Part shown: piece after piece, positions 52,376-59,951 of the stretch | How positions within the stretch are numbered: position 1 is the first letter of the stretch | How the letters are laid out: each line of letters starts with the position of its first letter | Origin: Hyphomicrobium sp. | Lineage (GTDB): Bacteria > Pseudomonadota > Alphaproteobacteria > Rhizobiales > Hyphomicrobiaceae | Direction of reading: 5' to 3' | Assembly (NCBI RefSeq): GCF_003987855.1 | Contig: NZ_RXIZ01000008.1 | Span: 25,095-89,094, forward strand | DNA length: 64,000 nucleotides | Program-made: the position numbers and the translations under genes | Notes under the pieces: model-generated | The model's database searches: none | Seen by the model: only the letters and a program-made list of their open reading frames with translations | What the model was told of the DNA's origin: nothing

Positions 52376-52451
<76 letters not shown>

Positions 52452-52637: not shown

Positions 52638-53765
52638 TTAGCTGTTGCGACCGTGGACGTAGGCCGACATGGCGATGCCGAGGCCGAGCATGAGGGTCGT
52701 CATCGAGGTTCCACCATAGGACAGCAACGGTAATGGGATTCCGACAACCGGAACCAAGCCGGTCACCATCGCCAGATTGATGAAGACGTAGATGAAAAAC
52801 GTCATCGCTGAGCCAGCGATGACGAGGCGGGCGAACCGGTTCTCGCACCGTTGAGCCATCACCATCATCAACAATATAAGCAGCGTGTAGATGGCGAGCA
52901 GCAGCACCATTCCAATAAATCCCCACTCCTCGCCGACCACACTGGCTATGAAGTCCGTGTGCTTCTCCGGCACAAAATCGAGTTGGCTTTGCGTGCCAAG
53001 CATAAAGCCTTTGCCGGCGACGCCGCCGGCACCGAGCGCGATCTTTGACTGCGTGATGTGATAGCCGGCGCCGAGCGGGTCCATGCCGGGATTTAGAAAG
53101 ACATCTATGCGGCGCCTTTGATAATCGTGCATGCCCGACCAGATCGCGGGCAGAGCTGCTGTCACTGCAATGGCGCCGAGCGCAAAATAGCGAACGGGCA
53201 CGCCGGCAAGAAACATAAGCGAAAGTCCGAGCGCAACGAACAACGCAGCAGATCCAAGGTCTGGCTGTTGCAACGTCAGCAGCACCGGTACGGCTATCAT
53301 TCCCAGCGGAACAAGCACATTAGCGGCCTTGCGGACCTCGCCCGGCGGCAGTCGAAGATAGTAGCGGGCGAGCGCTGCGACCAAAGCAAGCTTCATGAGT
53401 TCGGACGGCTGGAAGGATATCGCTCCTACGCCAATCCATCGTTTGGCGCCCAAAGCGTCGACGCCGATGAAGGGAACAAGCGCCAGCATCAAAAGCGCTA
53501 CAGCGTAGGCGGGGTATGCAAGCGCGATCCATTTCTCGAGCGGAATCGTCGCCATGATGACAACGACGACGAGCAGGACCAGGAACCGCAGCGTGTGGCG
53601 CTCTCCCCAAGGGATGAAAGAGCCGCCGGAAACGGAATAAAGGGTCACGGCACCGATGCCCGCGAGAATGCAAGTCGTGGCCAGTACCGGCCAGGGAACA
53701 CGCCAAAGCTTCTCCGCCAGCCGCATCGGCCGCCGCGCGATCCACTCGGAATAAACGCTGCGCAT
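52638..53765 (-). CDS. rodA: Peptidoglycan glycosyltransferase RodA
   Basis: RodA is the SEDS polymerase of the elongation machinery. The 375-residue membrane protein has about ten helices and the conserved catalytic Asp region HTDFIASVVGEEWGF (near residue 260), plus GIPLPLLSYGGTSM. It overlaps the mrdA stop by one base. RodA looks intact, in contrast to its PBP2 partner. Confidence 0.95.
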   Translation of the reverse strand: MRSVYSEWIARRPMRLAEKLWRVPWPVLATTCILAGIGAVTLYSVSGGSFIPWGERHTLRFLVLLVVVVIMATIPLEKWIALAYPAYAVALLMLALVPFIGVDALGAKRWIGVGAISFQPSELMKLALVAALARYYLRLPPGEVRKAANVLVPLGMIAVPVLLTLQQPDLGSAALFVALGLSLMFLAGVPVRYFALGAIAVTAALPAIWSGMHDYQRRRIDVFLNPGMDPLGAGYHITQSKIALGAGGVAGKGFMLGTQSQLDFVPEKHTDFIASVVGEEWGFIGMVLLLAIYTLLILLMMVMAQRCENRFARLVIAGSAMTFFIYVFINLAMVTGLVPVVGIPLPLLSYGGTSMTTLMLGLGIAMSAYVHGRNS

Positions 53766-55627
53766 CAGCCCTCCCTGCCGGCAGCCCGGGAGACACCGGG
53801 CAGATCGTTGCCTGCCCGAGATTTGACGTCGGCAGCATCACGCTCCAGCACGAAGTTTATAACGTCGCGACCGAGTCTTGCCGCAGCATTCCCATCGGCG
53901 CTGCGCTCGGTAACGGTTGCGATCGCATAGCGCGGCTTATCGGCGGGTTCGTAGCCGACAAAGAGAGTCGTTCTGCGCTGCACTTCGTTTGTTCCCTCCG
54001 CGCTCTGACGCGCGCCAGTTTCACTCGAAACAGTGCCCGCCACGAGCGGCTTTCCGTCGCCAAGTTTGGCCTCTCCGCCGACGCCGAGTGAATCGTTTGC
54101 AGCTGCTGTCAGCGCTTTGCGAACCAGATCGCAGTTAGCGAACTTGAAGGACAGAGGCACGAAGTTGGTATCGGCCTCTCCTCTTTTGGCTTCATCTGAA
54201 ATGGAAAGGCTCGGCGCGACCAGGCAACCGCTGGCAATTCTCGCCATCATGACAGCCAGCTGTAACGGGGTCGCCACGAGATATCCGCGGCCGGTTGCGG
54301 TGAGCAGCGTTTCGCCGCCATGCCATCCGCTATCGAGATTGCCTCGCTTCCAATCGGGGTCTGGAACGGTGCCAGGCTTTTCCTCCGCCAGACCGATGCC
54401 GCTCGCAACGCCCAACCCTAAAGCTCGCGCCGCAGCCGCGATGGGTGAAATTCCCAAGCGTGAGGAGATCTCATAAAAAAACACGTCGCAAGACGACCTG
54501 ATCGCATCGTGTACGTCGACGCTTCCATGGCCTTCCGGCTTCGAGCAGCGAAACTGCTGGCCGCCATATTCGTATTTGCCGTTGCACACGATATGCTCTT
54601 CGGGGGACACGACGCCCGCTTCGAGCGCGCCAAGCGCAGTTACGGAAAGGAATGTCGCTCCCGGAGGGTAGCAACCCGCAACGGCACGATTGAGCAAGGG
54701 TTTGGATTCGGAGCTTGATAGCTTTCCCCATTCGCTGTCGGAGATGCCTCCGGCAATGTCGCGCGCGTCATAGCCGGGAACGGAGGCCAGCACCTGGACA
54801 TGTCCTGTTGCGACATCGAGTACCACAGCAGCGGCACAGATGTCTGCCTGCATGCGCTCCACTGCACGACGCTGAAGTTCCGCATCGATGGTGATACGAA
54901 TGTCGCGTCCCGGAGTCGGATCGATTGTTTCCAGATTGCGTACGATGCGGCCGCGAGCGTCGACCTCCAATTTCTGCGTTCCGCCGATTCCTCGCAGCTC
55001 TGAGTCGAAAGCCAACTCGGCGCCATTCTTGCCAACGCGCATGTCTGGAAGGCGCATCACCGCGTCATCGTCGATGGCGAAACGATTAACGCTGCCGACG
55101 ACGCCGACCACATGGCTGAGCGCAGCGCCATCATGATATCGGCGCCGCCAAGAAAATTCGGTCTTTATACCCGGCAGACTCGGAGCGAGAAGATTGAGCT
55201 TTGCCACCTGCTCGAACGTCAATGCAGAGGCGATCGTCGTTGCAGCATATTTCCCCTGCTTGCGGGCACGCAAAACAATCTGCGCGATATCGTCGTTCGC
55301 GAGTGGCACGATCTCGCTAACGCGATGGAGCGTATCGGATACGTTCCTCGTCAAAGCAGGCGTGATGGTGACGCGGAACAGCTCGTCATTATCGGCGAGC
55401 AAGCGGCCGTACGCATCGAGGATTCGCCCTCGTTTCGGAGCGAGCGCCTGAAAATCGATGCGATTTTGATCGGCGAGAGGCGCATAGCGGGGAGCGCCAA
55501 GCACCTGAAGGTCGAAAAGCCGCCATCCGAGCAACCCGAAGGCAGCAGCCTGAAAACTACCGAGCAGCACGGCGCGGCGCGTGAACGGATCTTCGTGCGT
55601 CGGGTCGTCGTTTTCGTTATCCGCCAT
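53765..55627 (-). CDS. mrdA: PBP2 homologue lacking the transpeptidase catalytic residues
   Basis: PBP2 normally cross-links peptidoglycan during elongation and activates RodA. The 620-residue protein has the usual membrane anchor (about 20-40), pedestal and C-terminal transpeptidase fold, and lies in the normal mreBCD-mrdA-rodA order. The SxxK motif reads PPGATFL: the nucleophile is Ala324 and the Lys is Leu327. The KTG motif reads ETG at 536-538. The middle motif S379-C-D381 is kept. There is no frameshift. It should be unable to cross-link, and may serve only as an activator or scaffold of RodA. The start at 55627 overlaps the mreD stop by one base; the longer frame to 55984 is rejected. 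Confidence 0.9.
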   Translation of the reverse strand: MADNENDDPTHEDPFTRRAVLLGSFQAAAFGLLGWRLFDLQVLGAPRYAPLADQNRIDFQALAPKRGRILDAYGRLLADNDELFRVTITPALTRNVSDTLHRVSEIVPLANDDIAQIVLRARKQGKYAATTIASALTFEQVAKLNLLAPSLPGIKTEFSWRRRYHDGAALSHVVGVVGSVNRFAIDDDAVMRLPDMRVGKNGAELAFDSELRGIGGTQKLEVDARGRIVRNLETIDPTPGRDIRITIDAELQRRAVERMQADICAAAVVLDVATGHVQVLASVPGYDARDIAGGISDSEWGKLSSSESKPLLNRAVAGCYPPGATFLSVTALGALEAGVVSPEEHIVCNGKYEYGGQQFRCSKPEGHGSVDVHDAIRSSCDVFFYEISSRLGISPIAAAARALGLGVASGIGLAEEKPGTVPDPDWKRGNLDSGWHGGETLLTATGRGYLVATPLQLAVMMARIASGCLVAPSLSISDEAKRGEADTNFVPLSFKFANCDLVRKALTAAANDSLGVGGEAKLGDGKPLVAGTVSSETGARQSAEGTNEVQRRTTLFVGYEPADKPRYAIATVTERSADGNAAARLGRDVINFVLERDAADVKSRAGNDLPGVSRAAGREG

Positions 55628-56136
55628 CAGTCGCCTCGGGTCAGATGCAGCGACGTGGCGGACTTGGATGGCTTGGCGATTACGAGAGCGAGTTGCACGA
55701 GTGCGGCAAGAATGAGCGCGAAAAAAGCGCCGCGCGCGTACGGCTTCCAATCGAGAAGCTCGAGGAAGTACGCCGATGCGGCAAGCCAAGCGAAAAACGT
55801 CACTGAGATGATCGCAGTCGTAAAGAGCGCAACCTTTCCGCGCGGGCTTTCGATAGCAGAGCGCGAGGCGTAGACAGCCGCGATATAGGCCACGAGATAA
55901 ACGAGCGCCCAGTACCCGAGTGGACCCTGGGTGAGAACATCGAGCAGAAGACCGCAAAGAAAAAGCACCCATTCGGGCAGCCAAGCGGCGTCATCGCGAG
56001 TCCAATAGTAAATTGCCACGACCGGCAGAAGCGGGAGGACGAAGCGGTAATCCGACGGAAGGCCCCACGGAAGGATTGCAGCAAACGTCAGAGCCAGGAC
56101 GGATAGCGCGGGCAGCACGGTCACGCGCCACGTCAT
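55627..56136 (-). CDS. mreD: Rod shape-determining protein MreD
   Basis: The 169-residue product is a small membrane protein with five or six helices (LPALSVLALTFAAILPWGL, YWALVYLVAYIAAVYAS) and the conserved PLGYW segment. It bridges MreC and the cell-wall synthases. It overlaps mreC by four bases and mrdA by one base. Confidence 0.88.
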   Translation of the reverse strand: MTWRVTVLPALSVLALTFAAILPWGLPSDYRFVLPLLPVVAIYYWTRDDAAWLPEWVLFLCGLLLDVLTQGPLGYWALVYLVAYIAAVYASRSAIESPRGKVALFTTAIISVTFFAWLAASAYFLELLDWKPYARGAFFALILAALVQLALVIAKPSKSATSLHLTRGD

Positions 56137-57086
56137 TGGCCGCTCCCCGAATGGAGAGACGTGCCGGAATTGGTTCCGGCATCACTGTGGGCAGCGTCTG
56201 CGGTTGATTTCTGGTTTGCCGGCTCATCGGTCAGATTCGATGATGGATCGTCGTAGAAAAGCACGCTGACGTAGTCGAGGTGATCCAAGTTGGCTCGTAT
56301 GCGAACGCGGGGCTCAGTGTCCTTGCCGCCGTGGACAACGCCAATTCGAAGCCCGGCAGGAAAGAGCCCGCCGGTGCCTGAGGTCGCGACGTCGTCTCCT
56401 TGTGAAACCTTCGCTCCGTCGGGAAGATAGATGAGGCGCGGCTCACTCGTATTGTCGCCTGCAAGGATGGCGCGGGCAGCGGTTGGTCCGACGACCACGG
56501 GGATTCGACTATTTATGTCGGTCGCAAGCAGCACGCGAGCGGAGGTCGGTCCAATATCGACAATGCGACCCAGCAGACCGTCGGCATTCACTACCGGATA
56601 CCCAACTTTGAGTTTGTTGTTGCTGCCGGCATCTATGGTGACGTTGCGCACGAAAGCGCCGCCGCTCGAATCTGCGATGACGCGACCGGTGATGAAATCG
56701 AGTTTCTGTGCCGGCACGGTTCGGGCGATCGCTTCCAAATCAGCGAGCTTGGATTCCAGCTGCCGCGCCCGCCATTCCCAACTGGCGAGCCGCTGGTTTT
56801 CCTGCTTCAGCCGATCGACCTCATCCTGAAGTCCTGCCTGCGTTCCGAGCGTTCTCCCAACATCGCGCAGTGGATCGAGCGGCACCATGGCCGATTGAAA
56901 TAGGGGCGACATTGATGATGCGACCTGCCAACGAAGGTCGCTGAGCATGCTGTGGTCCATCCGGCTTAGCAACATTAGCGCGGACGAGATGAAGAGCAGG
57001 AGAAGGATCAACGGGCGCAGCCGCCGTCCCCGCGTCGGTGCTCGACCGCGCGCAAAAATGAATTGAGCATCCTTGAGGCGAGTCAT
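56133..57086 (-). CDS. mreC: Rod shape-determining protein MreC
   Basis: The 317-residue protein has an N-terminal transmembrane helix (about 24-40), a coiled coil (about 80-120, LQDEVDRLKQENQRLASWEWRARQLE at 56760-56840), and the beta domains typical of MreC (ITGRVIADSSGGAFVRNVTIDAGSNNKLKVG, GLLGRIVDIGPTSARVLLATD, in 56510-56700). The C-terminal 35 residues are disordered and Ser/Asn-rich. It follows mreB by 42 bp. Confidence 0.92.
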   Translation of the reverse strand: MTRLKDAQFIFARGRAPTRGRRLRPLILLLLFISSALMLLSRMDHSMLSDLRWQVASSMSPLFQSAMVPLDPLRDVGRTLGTQAGLQDEVDRLKQENQRLASWEWRARQLESKLADLEAIARTVPAQKLDFITGRVIADSSGGAFVRNVTIDAGSNNKLKVGYPVVNADGLLGRIVDIGPTSARVLLATDINSRIPVVVGPTAARAILAGDNTSEPRLIYLPDGAKVSQGDDVATSGTGGLFPAGLRIGVVHGGKDTEPRVRIRANLDHLDYVSVLFYDDPSSNLTDEPANQKSTADAAHSDAGTNSGTSLHSGSGQ

Positions 57087-57128: not shown

Positions 57129-58169
57129 TTACGGCCGGATCAAGAGGTGCTCGCGCTCTTTGAGAGTGTCGAGTATGGCGGCCGATCCGGCGATGACACA
57201 CCGTTCCGGCTGTTCAGGTAAATGAATTTTTATGCCGATACGCCTTTCGAGCTCCTGATCAAGCTTGGCCAGCTTCGAGCCCCCGCCCGAAAGATGGATG
57301 CCGCGCTCGCAAATGTCGCTTGAAATCTCGGGAGGCAGATCTTCGATCGTGTGTTGGATAAACTCCGCGATCTTTTCGATAGGTACTTCGAGCGCCTCGG
57401 CGATGTCATGCGGAACAAGTACGGCCGTCTTAGGTTTGCCTTCCCGGATTTCACGCCCGCGGATGAAGATCTCGGCCGCTTCCCCGTTCGCTTCTCGCGA
57501 TGCCGAACCCGCTTCGATCTTGATGCGCTCGGCGTTGGCTTCTCCGATCAGCAGCTGGTGGCGACGGCGGACATAGCGAATGATAGCTTCGTCCATCGCA
57601 TTGCCGCCGCAGCGGATCGAGCTTGCCTGAACGACGCCGCCGAGCGATAGGACGGCGATGTCGGTCGTGCCCCCGCCGATATCGACGACCATCGAGCCCT
57701 TCGGCTCATCAATCGGCAAGCCGGCGCCGATGGCGGCGGCAACGGGCTCCTCGACAAGGTAGACCTTCCTGGCGCCGGCCATCATAGCCGTCTCGTAGAC
57801 GGCGCGACGCTCGACGGGCGTAGCGCCCGCTGGAACGCAAATCAGAATTCGGGGGCGCACGAAATCGACGACGGACTTCGTGCGGCTGATGAATTGGCGC
57901 AGCATTTCTTCGGTGGCGACGAAGTCGGCTATGACGCCGTCACGCAGCGGCCGGATCGTCTCGATGCTTTCAGGCGTGCGCCCAAGCATCTGCTTCGCCT
58001 TCTCACCGACCGCCAGGACTTCCCGAACACCGCCCTTCGAGCGGATGGCGACGACGGAGGGTTCATTGAGGATCACGCCGCGGCCCGCGACATAGACAAG
58101 AGTGTTGGCTGTTCCCAAGTCGATGGCGATGTCGTCGGAGAGGACACTTTTGACTTTGAACCCAAACAT
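57129..58169 (-). CDS. mreB: Rod shape-determining protein MreB (actin-like)
   Basis: MreB forms membrane-bound filaments that organise side-wall growth. The 346-residue protein has the actin-fold phosphate loops DLGTANTLVYV (near residue 15) and DIGGGTTDIAVLSLGG (about 162-177), and the adenosine motif HLSGGGSKLAKLD. I start at ATG 58169 to match the family's N-terminus MFGF; a reading from 58319 would add 50 residues absent from the family. It is the first gene of the elongasome unit. Confidence 0.95.
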   Translation of the reverse strand: MFGFKVKSVLSDDIAIDLGTANTLVYVAGRGVILNEPSVVAIRSKGGVREVLAVGEKAKQMLGRTPESIETIRPLRDGVIADFVATEEMLRQFISRTKSVVDFVRPRILICVPAGATPVERRAVYETAMMAGARKVYLVEEPVAAAIGAGLPIDEPKGSMVVDIGGGTTDIAVLSLGGVVQASSIRCGGNAMDEAIIRYVRRRHQLLIGEANAERIKIEAGSASREANGEAAEIFIRGREIREGKPKTAVLVPHDIAEALEVPIEKIAEFIQHTIEDLPPEISSDICERGIHLSGGGSKLAKLDQELERRIGIKIHLPEQPERCVIAGSAAILDTLKEREHLLIRP

Positions 58170-58370
58170 ACTGTGAATTCCGGCCCACTCTTCGACGTCC
58201 AGGTTAGGGGACGCACAATGTTTCTCAAGGTCGCTGCGCTCATCGGGCGAAGCGAGCATCCGGTCTCGGAACCGGCCACGGGCATGTTCATACACAGGCA
58301 ATGGGTCGTCGGGTAGCATGCAGAGATTGTGGCATGCTGCCCCGACGAAAGTGCGGCTCCAGCTTGGCGT

Positions 58371-59951
58371 CTAAAAGGCTTGCTGAGCCTGCGCCGTCTT
58401 TTGCCGTTTGACGACGAGTTTGTTGAGGGCGGAAACGTATGCCCGAGCGGAGGCCACCAGAGTGTCCGGATCAGCGGCACGGCCCGTTACAGCCCGGCCA
58501 TCCTCCTCAAGACGCACCGAAACCTCGGCTTGCGCGTCCGTCCCCTCTGTCACGGCGTGGACCTGATAGAGTTCCAGGCGCGCGTTGTGCGGCAACAATT
58601 GCTTGATGGCATTGAAGGTGGCATCGACCGGACCGTTGCCGACGCTTTGCACGGTTTTTGACTGCCCATCGATATCGAGCGTCAGAGTGGCAGTCTGCGG
58701 TCCCATCGTCCCAGCAATGACGGTCAAAGCGGTTACCTTCACGCTGTCGTTCATATGCGCGACACCGTCGTCGACGAGAGCCTCGATATCCTCGTCGTAA
58801 ATGTGCTTTTTGCGGTCGGCGAGGGCCTTGAAGCGATTGAAGGCATCTTCCATGGCATTGTCGCCCAAGCTGTAGCCCAGTTCCTTCAACTTGGATTTGA
58901 AGGCCGCACGTCCCGAGTGCTTGCCCATGACAAGCGATGACTTGCTGACGCCTACGGATTCGGGCGTCATGATTTCATAGGTTTCGGTATTCTTGAGTAC
59001 GCCGTCCTGATGAATGCCGCTCTCGTGAGCGAACGCGTTGCGGCCGACGATCGCCTTATTGTACTGAACCGGGAAGTTCGTCACCGCGGAGACCAGCTTC
59101 GAAGCTCGCGATAGCATCTCGGTCGTGATGTCAGTGCGATACGGCAACAGATCGTGGCGCGTCCGGATTGCCATGACGACTTCTTCGAGTGCGGCATTGC
59201 CCGCGCGTTCGCCGAGGCCATTGATCGTGCATTCGATCTGTCGCGCACCCGCCCGAACGCCAGCCAGCGAATTGGCGACGGCCAGACCGAGGTCATCGTG
59301 ACAATGAGTCGAGATGACGACCTTGTCCATGCCGGGCACGCGTGTCTTCAGCATCGTGATGAGGTCGAAGTATTCTTCGGGCGTGGCGTAACCCACGGTA
59401 TCGGGGATGTTGATGGTCGTAGCGCCCGCCTTGATGGCCGCTTCGATCACGCGGCAGAGGTAGTCGTGCTCGGTACGCGTGGCGTCCATCGCGCTCCACT
59501 CAACGTCGTCGGTGTAGCCGCGCGCCCGGGTCACGGAACTCACCACCCGCTCGTAAACCTGATCCTGCGTCAGCTGCAGTTGATGCTGACGGTGCAGGGG
59601 AGAAGTGCCGATGAACGTGTGGATGCGACCGCGCTTCGCCGGCTTGATTGCCTCACCGGCGCGGTCGATATCCGTGAAGTTGGCGCGGGCAAGACCGCAG
59701 ATCACAGACTGCTTGGCCAGTTTGGCGATCTCGGTCACGGCCTCGAAGTCGCCTTCGGAGGCGATCGGGAAGCCTGCCTCGATGACGTCGACGCCCATCG
59801 TGTCAAGCAGTTCGGCGACCTGAAGCTTCTCCTCAAAGGTCATCGTCGCGCCGGGGCACTGCTCGCCGTCGCGCAGAGTTGTATCAAAAATGATAATCTT
59901 GTCGCTGTCGCGCTTCGGGTTTGCCGGCGCGTCTTGTGTTTGAGATGTCAT
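58371..59951 (-). CDS. leuA: 2-isopropylmalate synthase
   Basis: LeuA catalyses the first committed step of leucine synthesis from 2-oxoisovalerate and acetyl-CoA. The 526-residue protein has the HMGL-like barrel with IIFDTTLRDGEQCPGATM (about 20-37) and the metal ligands HCHDD. The C-terminal leucine-binding regulatory domain starts at about residue 405. A leader peptide with Leu codons lies about 110 bp upstream, so expression should respond to leucyl-tRNA. mreB lies 200 bp downstream. Confidence 0.96.
   Translation of the reverse strand: MTSQTQDAPANPKRDSDKIIIFDTTLRDGEQCPGATMTFEEKLQVAELLDTMGVDVIEAGFPIASEGDFEAVTEIAKLAKQSVICGLARANFTDIDRAGEAIKPAKRGRIHTFIGTSPLHRQHQLQLTQDQVYERVVSSVTRARGYTDDVEWSAMDATRTEHDYLCRVIEAAIKAGATTINIPDTVGYATPEEYFDLITMLKTRVPGMDKVVISTHCHDDLGLAVANSLAGVRAGARQIECTINGLGERAGNAALEEVVMAIRTRHDLLPYRTDITTEMLSRASKLVSAVTNFPVQYNKAIVGRNAFAHESGIHQDGVLKNTETYEIMTPESVGVSKSSLVMGKHSGRAAFKSKLKELGYSLGDNAMEDAFNRFKALADRKKHIYDEDIEALVDDGVAHMNDSVKVTALTVIAGTMGPQTATLTLDIDGQSKTVQSVGNGPVDATFNAIKQLLPHNARLELYQVHAVTEGTDAQAEVSVRLEEDGRAVTGRAADPDTLVASARAYVSALNKLVVKRQKTAQAQQAF

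Follow-up and report, generated by a model that had tools for sequence, protein, structure and literature searches.

A PBP2 lacking the SxxK and KTG motifs in the elongasome operon of Hyphomicrobium: a probable pseudo-transpeptidase retained as a RodA activator

Hyphomicrobium is a budding genus. In the window, i.e., the whole 64,000-nucleotide stretch of Hyphomicrobium DNA that was analysed, an mreB-mreC-mreD-mrdA-rodA operon lies on the reverse strand next to leuA (58371..59951, also reverse), a conserved neighbour named from its translation, whose product we take to be 2-isopropylmalate synthase. leuA is present in all 25 genomes searched and served as phylogenetic marker and synteny anchor. 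The longest open reading frame of mreB spans 57129..58319 (PF06723, E 9.8e-130), with a match that begins at residue 62; most congeners match from residue 36–53 on, and the true start is probably about 50 residues inside this frame. It is followed by mreC (56133..57086; PF04085, E 8.5e-32), mreD (55627..56136; TIGR03426, 38.0 bits against a cut-off of 34.85, with no match in the Pfam search), mrdA (53765..55627, encoding 620 amino acid residues) and an intact rodA for the SEDS glycosyltransferase (52638..53765; TIGR02210 rodA_shape, 393.9 bits against a cut-off of 336.7).

The mrdA product is a PBP2/MrdA by descent. It scores 516.5 bits with TIGR03423 (pbp2_mrdA, curated cut-off 455), its gene is placed between mreD and rodA, and it is composed of an N-terminal membrane segment at approximately residues 18–40 (55508..55576), read by eye in the translation and conserved in the congener alignment, a PBP dimerisation (pedestal) domain at residues 63–232 (54932..55441; PF03717, E 1.5e-35) and a transpeptidase-fold (TP) domain at residues 266–590 (53858..54832; PF00905, E 9e-42). 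In profile, synteny, length, domain order, membrane segment and pedestal it resembles the canonical PBP2/MrdA that works with RodA in the elongasome (TIGR03423; solved chains 7kis, 8tj3, 5lp4 and 6pl5) and, judged by its sequence and position, it is a true PBP2 (MrdA) orthologue; the Hyphomicrobium elongasome operon around it is otherwise intact.

The difference from the canonical proteins lies in the active site, where SxxK, whose lysine is indispensable for the enzyme chemistry, and KTG are both missing. At the SxxK position we observed A324-T-F-L327 (54647..54658), encoded by GCG at codon 324 and CTT at codon 327, with the nucleophile and the general base both replaced. The SxD motif is retained as S379-C-D381 (54485..54493), and the remaining 10 species of the clade described below have SCE there. 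The KTG column, placed by alignment with 13 congeners and by a codon-level check, contains T532-V-S534 (54026..54034). A preliminary description of this DNA had reported a full-length, in-frame mrdA within the operon, with A-T-F-L at SxxK and S-C-D still present, and the reading frame, strand, length, gene order and codons all agree with it; it was also right that KTG is lost, but the E536-T-G538 (54014..54022) that it took for the altered motif is an off-register look-alike four residues downstream of the aligned column and not a KTG homologue. Of the motifs of an active acyl-serine (SxxK) transpeptidase, the protein thus keeps SxN/SxD and has neither SxxK nor KTG, so that Ser, Lys and KTG are missing together in the window species.

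Our genus sample comprised 22 Hyphomicrobium genomes, 14 of them with mrdA. The SxxK lysine is absent in 12 of these 14 MrdA proteins, all from separate assemblies, and kept in two; it is replaced by a hydrophobic residue (Leu, Val or Met) in a clade of 11 species and by Glu in the twelfth affected species (G019). Ser324 is kept in 10 of the 12 affected species, Ser379 in all 12 and the lysine of the KTG column in 11, whereas the loop after KTG is also missing in six of them, as seen in the alignment with congeners. In addition, Glu381 and Cys385 are common to 10 of the 11 clade members, at sites where at least 97% of canonical rows have Asp and Tyr. Outside Hyphomicrobium, SxxK is intact in 88 of 88 MrdA rows and in each of the 32 MrdA-bearing genomes of other genera that a draw of 397 genomes from the order contained. 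Whether the losses are clade-wide in Hyphomicrobiales had been raised in the preliminary description, and an order-wide loss is rejected by these 32 genomes: the losses are limited to one lineage of one genus. The lysine loss is neither chance nor a base-calling error, because the residue is absent from 12 of 14 separate assemblies and from none of the 88 rows outside the genus. It may have occurred once or twice within the genus (bootstrap values are 38–45 at the forks uniting G004, G008, G017 and G019).

All 12 affected species have an open mrdA reading frame. Seven pairs chosen by hand from the 11-species clade gave a dN/dS of 0.099–0.173 for the TP domain, 0.043–0.126 for the pedestal and 0.030–0.079 for rodA, while mreB in the clade gave 0.014–0.047; a pseudogene is rejected by the open frames and these ratios, and the whole PBP2 is under purifying selection in the affected clade. 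dN/dS alone fails to show relaxation, because the canonical pair G009–G006 scores higher (TP 0.276, pedestal 0.207 and rodA 0.164, at a saturated dS of 1.3–1.7). The normalised TP/pedestal rate, with intervals from 60 bootstraps, was 1.99 (1.62–2.52) in the clade and 2.49 (1.94–3.64) in G019, against 1.10 (0.79–1.47) in two canonical congeners. RodA and the pedestal show no clear rate excess in affected species. Of 23 pedestal sites with almost no variation across 90 canonical rows, 22 are conserved in 10 or more species of the clade, and of 56 RodA sites that do not vary among 22 canonical taxa, all 12 affected species retain 55. Relaxation is therefore limited to the TP domain, with the pedestal at normal constraint.

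A search of the window genome (99.58% complete) found no second PBP2, active or not, for which the preliminary description had proposed to look, and at most one strong MrdA-profile match per genome was obtained in the 22 genomes of the genus; compensation by an active second PBP2 is rejected, given the single MrdA. The window genome does encode five other PF00905 (PBP-type) proteins, all with SxxK and KTG (GSVFK at SxxK in the FtsI-like protein), as well as 17 YkuD domain matches. Class A PBP matches number four in affected species versus three in each canonical species, a hint at a new class A PBP as PBP2 replacement; we rejected this candidate, since the four proteins of the window genome belong to four orthologous groups, and every group is represented in one or both of the canonical species (among the matches listed, G006 is without the L218 type and G009 without the L220 type). 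The class A orthology covered G006, G009, G019, G008, G010 and two proteins of G001.

We consider it probable that the PBP2 of these species is a pseudo-transpeptidase kept as a non-catalytic activator of RodA, with cross-linking in trans; catalytic death, activation and trans cross-linking are all three what we infer from sequences. One Hyphomicrobium lineage would have lost the acyl-transfer chemistry with the SxxK lysine, now gone in 12 species, and some species would later have lost also the Ser, KTG or the loop after KTG, the protein being retained. The membrane segment and pedestal of PBP2 would bind RodA and turn on its glycan polymerase, PBP2 would relay MreC/MreD input to RodA, and class A PBPs, L,D-transpeptidases or both would cross-link the nascent strands in trans. 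That PBP2 stimulates the RodA polymerase is suggested by the conserved pedestal, a domain described as an allosteric hub for RodA (excerpt of PMC8078798). The preliminary description had already proposed a PBP2 acting only as RodA activator, with other enzymes cross-linking, in a budding organism, and this fits the single PBP2, the intact RodA, the constrained pedestal, the relaxed TP domain, the five PF00905 proteins and the 17 YkuD matches. With slightly less confidence, but still favouring it, we go further and propose a natural, selectively maintained pseudo-transpeptidase, in which RodA-PBP2 would only polymerise glycan, PBP2 would be an obligate allosteric activator and all cross-links would be made in trans, a half-way state between MreB-guided elongation and Rod-less budding growth. 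What began as a penicillin target may have evolved into an activator and nothing else. Counted against the activator reading is the behaviour of E. coli, in which a toxic futile cycle sets in when transpeptidation by PBP2 is blocked and RodA continues to work (excerpt of PMC6207328); the affected species must therefore have solved this coupling problem, and no compensating gene was identified.

The main rival is slow decay of the elongasome, in which budding or polar growth would have replaced lateral growth, PBP2 catalysis would have gone first, and RodA-PBP2 would now do little and eventually be lost. RodA was found in all 14 Hyphomicrobium genomes with MrdA and in none of the eight without it, and the joint absence in 8 of 22 genomes (two of these eight assemblies are incomplete) speaks for decay, as does a TP domain evolving approximately twice as fast as expected. 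In the single-contig genomes G008 and G017, leuA keeps its upstream neighbours, the approximately 6 kb behind it contain no mre, mrdA or rodA, and both genomes fall in one well-supported group with the affected species; this operon loss in relatives suits a decaying machine and was also counted against the activator reading. When lost, the PBP2 of G008 and G017 may have been already inactive or still active. Decay is nevertheless unlikely in our view, given the open frames in 12 of 12 species, the low dN/dS in the clade (TP 0.10–0.17, rodA 0.03–0.08, mreB 0.014–0.047) and the lack of a clear rate excess in RodA or the pedestal. As in a SEDS-class B PBP pair, the cognate RodA is present with its invariant residues, and the impression of an intact RodA given in the preliminary description is borne out by these residues; the constant company of RodA and PBP2 counts in favour of the activator reading.

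Residual chemistry or ligand binding seems to us improbable; in this reading a different base would serve, and the retained Ser, SxD/SxE and KTG/KSG would leave room for acylation at a low rate, for carboxypeptidase activity or for the sensing of substrate. It is not certain that acylation is lost completely, because most affected species keep Ser324 and the KTG-column lysine, and the Ser379 of all 12 and the shared Glu381 and Cys385 point the same way; however, Ser, Lys and KTG are all gone in the window species, the lysine has become hydrophobic in 11 species and Glu in one, and six have lost the loop after KTG. We give hardly any credence to a sequencing, assembly or frame error, named in the preliminary description as a possible refutation, or to a functional PBP2 at another locus of the genome: for the lysine, error is already refuted by the separate assemblies, the frame has no interruption and the nearly complete genome has one MrdA, although the Ser-to-Ala change and the KTG loss are private to one assembly.

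Regarding known systems, catalytically inactive mutants of B. subtilis PBP2B and S. aureus PBP1 still support division, which is interpreted there as the SEDS partner remaining activated (excerpt of PMC8078798); the B. subtilis case counts for the activator reading. L. lactis PBP2b inactivated by Ser414Ala, in contrast, did not restore proper septation (excerpt of PMC5965867), which was counted against that reading, since a dead class B PBP is not always sufficient. All of these are laboratory mutants, the first two in division, while the Hyphomicrobium loss is natural and concerns the elongasome of 12 species. Among the literature matches listed, no PBP2 or other class B PBP that is inactive in nature appears in the titles and abstract beginnings. 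The separability of the SEDS-activating and transpeptidase roles of class B PBPs has so far been studied with mutants and drugs; evolution appears to have split both roles in the elongasome, a split kept by 12 of the 14 gene-bearing Hyphomicrobium genomes, making the affected species a natural system for asking how the RodA-PBP2 coupling problem was solved. Agrobacterium-type Rhizobiales, of the same order, have lost the whole Rod complex, elongate with a class A PBP and encode many L,D-transpeptidases (excerpt of PMC8546619); Hyphomicrobium, in contrast, still encodes MreBCD, RodA and PBP2, and only the catalytic residues of PBP2 are gone. The published statements that Hyphomicrobium is without MreB (excerpt of PMC4460556) and Rhizobiales without the Rod complex (excerpt of PMC8546619) both need qualifying, as mreB is present in 18 and rodA-mrdA in 14 of the 22 genomes examined.

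The mrdA gene (53765-55627, minus strand) encodes a PBP2 of 620 aa in an open frame, with a TIGR03423 pbp2_mrdA score of 516.5 bits (cut-off, 455 bits), and both the PF03717 pedestal and the PF00905 transpeptidase (TP) domain were identified by profile search. The gene order is leuA-mreB-mreC-mreD-mrdA-rodA, where the gene next to mreB is one we take to be leuA; a tRNA-Lys(CTT) (52376-52451) is located downstream of rodA, on the same strand. The top-scoring solved chain for this PBP2 is 7kis, an MrdA, and since window NRAVAGCYPPGATFL aligns with 7kis NRVLRGLYPPGSTVK, the SxxK position corresponds to Ala324-Thr-Phe-Leu327. The replacement of SxxK proposed in the preliminary description is thus confirmed by this alignment and by the alignment and codons of congeners, and SxD is indeed intact (Ser379-Cys-Asp381). 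KTG is also gone, as had been claimed, but its assignment to Glu536-Thr-Gly538 was four residues off register: the congener KTG column corresponds to residues 532-534, Thr-Val-Ser.

MrdA, MreB and RodA were searched in 22 Hyphomicrobium genomes (G000-G021, G000 being that of the window). mrdA is present in 14/22, and both SxxK and KTG are kept in two of these, G006 and G009, hereafter canonical. In 11/14, which form a clade (G000, G001, G003, G007, G011, G013, G014, G015, G016, G018 and G020), the SxxK lysine is replaced by Leu, Val or Met, while Ser324 is kept in 10/11; in G019, the twelfth affected species, Ser is replaced by Gly and Lys by Glu. The KTG column of the clade reads KTG (n=3), KSG (n=5), KAG (n=2) or, in the window, TVS (n=1), and in the alignment the stretch behind KTG is also gone in six species. 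The single mrdA of G019 (L207) is a second case, encoding a PBP2 with more erosion (GGTFE versus GSTFK), in which the place of the PDWKRG...GGET segment, conserved in the others, is rewritten; the RodA motifs of G019 are intact. The window PBP2 has SCD (54485-54493) and Tyr385 as in canonical PBP2, whereas its 10 clade-mates have SCE and Cys385, a distribution that may reflect two reversions or else parallel changes that occurred repeatedly.

Outside the genus, we compiled a census of 105 rows (14 genus, 3 family and 88 further loci, 80 of them among the matches listed and 8 from another search). With the genus rows and three loci duplicating them set aside, 88 rows remain, which include a few same-genome repeats (L065 = G024 = L022) as well as L063 and L064, titled Hyphomicrobium sp. 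yet placed outside the 22-genome genus in the tree. Among the matches listed, SxxK and SxD are kept in 88/88 and KTG departs in 3/88 (KTA in L105, none aligned in L115, KIG in L023 of genome G043), with SxxK intact in all three; these departures may be real, or due to frameshift or misalignment. Of 397 genomes drawn from the order, 37 had MrdA (threshold, E <= 1e-60), 32 of these lying outside Hyphomicrobium. The preliminary description had asked whether the losses are clade-wide; SxxK is retained in 32/32 of these genomes, one having KIG for KTG and one having an MrdA that spans two contigs. Within the sample taken, SxxK loss is, as judged from these sequences, a Hyphomicrobium trait. Searches on Hyphomicrobium and MreB gave no title on PBP2 inactivation, nor, among the matches listed, did those on Hyphomicrobium and RodA, PBPs or polar growth, and within these literature searches, together with others for a naturally inactive PBP2 or class B PBP, such inactivation appears unreported.

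Nei-Gojobori dN/dS, calculated for seven hand-chosen pairs inside the clade, was 0.099-0.173 for TP, 0.043-0.126 for the pedestal, 0.030-0.079 for rodA and 0.014-0.047 for mreB, with dS below 0.8 in every partition for five pairs and up to 0.7-2.2 in the other two, which are less reliable. By these values, mrdA is not in pseudogene decay. Since the canonical pair G009-G006 gave higher values (TP 0.276, pedestal 0.207, rodA 0.164; dS 1.3-1.7), dN/dS by itself is evidence of selection and not of relaxation. On a fixed 34-taxon tree, in which 17 of the non-genus taxa were hand-picked from those having both genes, we compared branch length in the clade with that elsewhere; RodA gave a ratio of 0.065, the pedestal 0.083 and TP 0.177. 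The TP/pedestal rate was 1.99 (1.62-2.52; 60 column bootstraps) in the clade and 2.49 (1.94-3.64) in G019, against 1.10 (0.79-1.47) on the two canonical branches, and the pedestal/RodA rates all overlap (1.29, 1.04-1.72; 1.98, 1.37-3.18; 1.48, 1.09-2.05, respectively); relaxation is therefore restricted to the catalytic domain of PBP2. Among sites with at least 97% identity across 90 canonical rows, 22/23 in the pedestal and 38/47 in TP are kept in at least 10/11 clade species, and Lys327 in 0/11. In RodA, 55/56 sites invariant in 22 canonical taxa are kept across all 12 affected species, and the TDF segment is retained, its Asp271 in the window RodA being presumably the equivalent of catalytic Asp262 of E. 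coli RodA.

We consider it probable, from these sequence comparisons, that PBP2 of the affected species is a pseudo-transpeptidase kept as an activator of RodA, the nascent strands being cross-linked in trans; a slow decay of the elongasome in the lineage seems unlikely. According to passages of PMC8078798, RodA is activated by the pedestal of PBP2, which acts on ECL4 of RodA, and B. subtilis PBP2B without catalysis is functional in division; motif loss together with the constraint pattern would be what this pedestal-activation model predicts if activation alone is still required. Against a simple transfer of the activator model, inactive PBP2b failed to restore septation in L. lactis, as stated in a passage of PMC5965867. 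The activator model would also have to account for the coupling of RodA output to cross-linking: in E. coli, RodA product left uncrosslinked leads to a toxic futile cycle (passage in PMC6207328). Cross-linking of RodA product in trans would be plausible, because Agrobacterium, of the same order, elongates by PBP1a in the absence of a Rod complex, L,D-transpeptidases being numerous in such genomes (passage in PMC8546619).

A second active mrdA, raised in the preliminary description, was not found in G000 (99.58% complete), where MrdA n=1. It has six PF00905 proteins. Besides PBP2 there is a 552-aa protein, assigned to FtsI by its length, motifs and an FtsW-like match nearby on contig 18, and there are four longer ones (777-875 aa), assigned to class A by their length; all five other than PBP2 keep SxxK and KTG, and 17 YkuD-domain matches are present. 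PF00905 matches number six in each affected species, five in each of the eight mrdA-less genomes but four in G005 (71% complete), five in G006 and six in G009, two of the latter being partial stretches. With MrdA and FtsI set aside, three class A matches remain in canonical and four in affected species. An added class A PBP replacing PBP2 was rejected, as no class A group is unique to affected species among those compared (G006, G009, G019, G008, G010 and two proteins of G001), and no replacement gene was seen among the class A groups of these species. Each canonical species (class A PBPs L339-L344 for the two together) is without a different one of four class A groups: G006 has the L219, L220 and L221 types and not L218, and G009 (88% complete) has L218, L219 and L221 and not L220.

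RodA is present in 14/14 genomes with mrdA and in 0/8 without it, where the best RodA-search matches show 29-32% identity, the FtsW level; two of these absences are weak, the contig stopping within mreD in G004 (84% complete) and mreB lying at a contig end in G005, and in G002 and G012, whose contigs stop shortly past leuA, absence of rodA-mrdA rests on genome-wide searches. In the single-contig genomes G008 (L333) and G017 (L334) the neighbours upstream of leuA are conserved, and the mre-mrdA-rodA block was not found in ~6 kb behind leuA. G010 (L211) and G021 (L212) have, behind leuA, an apparent orphan mreB 78-80% identical to that of the window; mreC/mreD were not found in the 6-8 kb behind it, nor mrdA/rodA genome-wide. 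In passages of earlier reports, Hyphomicrobium is named among bacteria without MreB (PMC4460556), MreB is given as absent from H. nitrativorans (PMC10259793), and loss of pbp2, mreB, mreCD and rodA is assigned to one Rhizobiales node (PMC12130487). In our RpoB+RpoC+LeuA species tree, G006 is basal, G002, G005, G010, G012 and G021 form a clade without RodA-PBP2, and canonical G009 is sister of a group (bootstrap 100) made up of G004, G008, G017, G019 and the 11 clade species, the branching order of the first four having bootstraps of 38-45. On this topology, a single genus would have undergone one or two losses of PBP2 chemistry and no fewer than two of rodA-mrdA.
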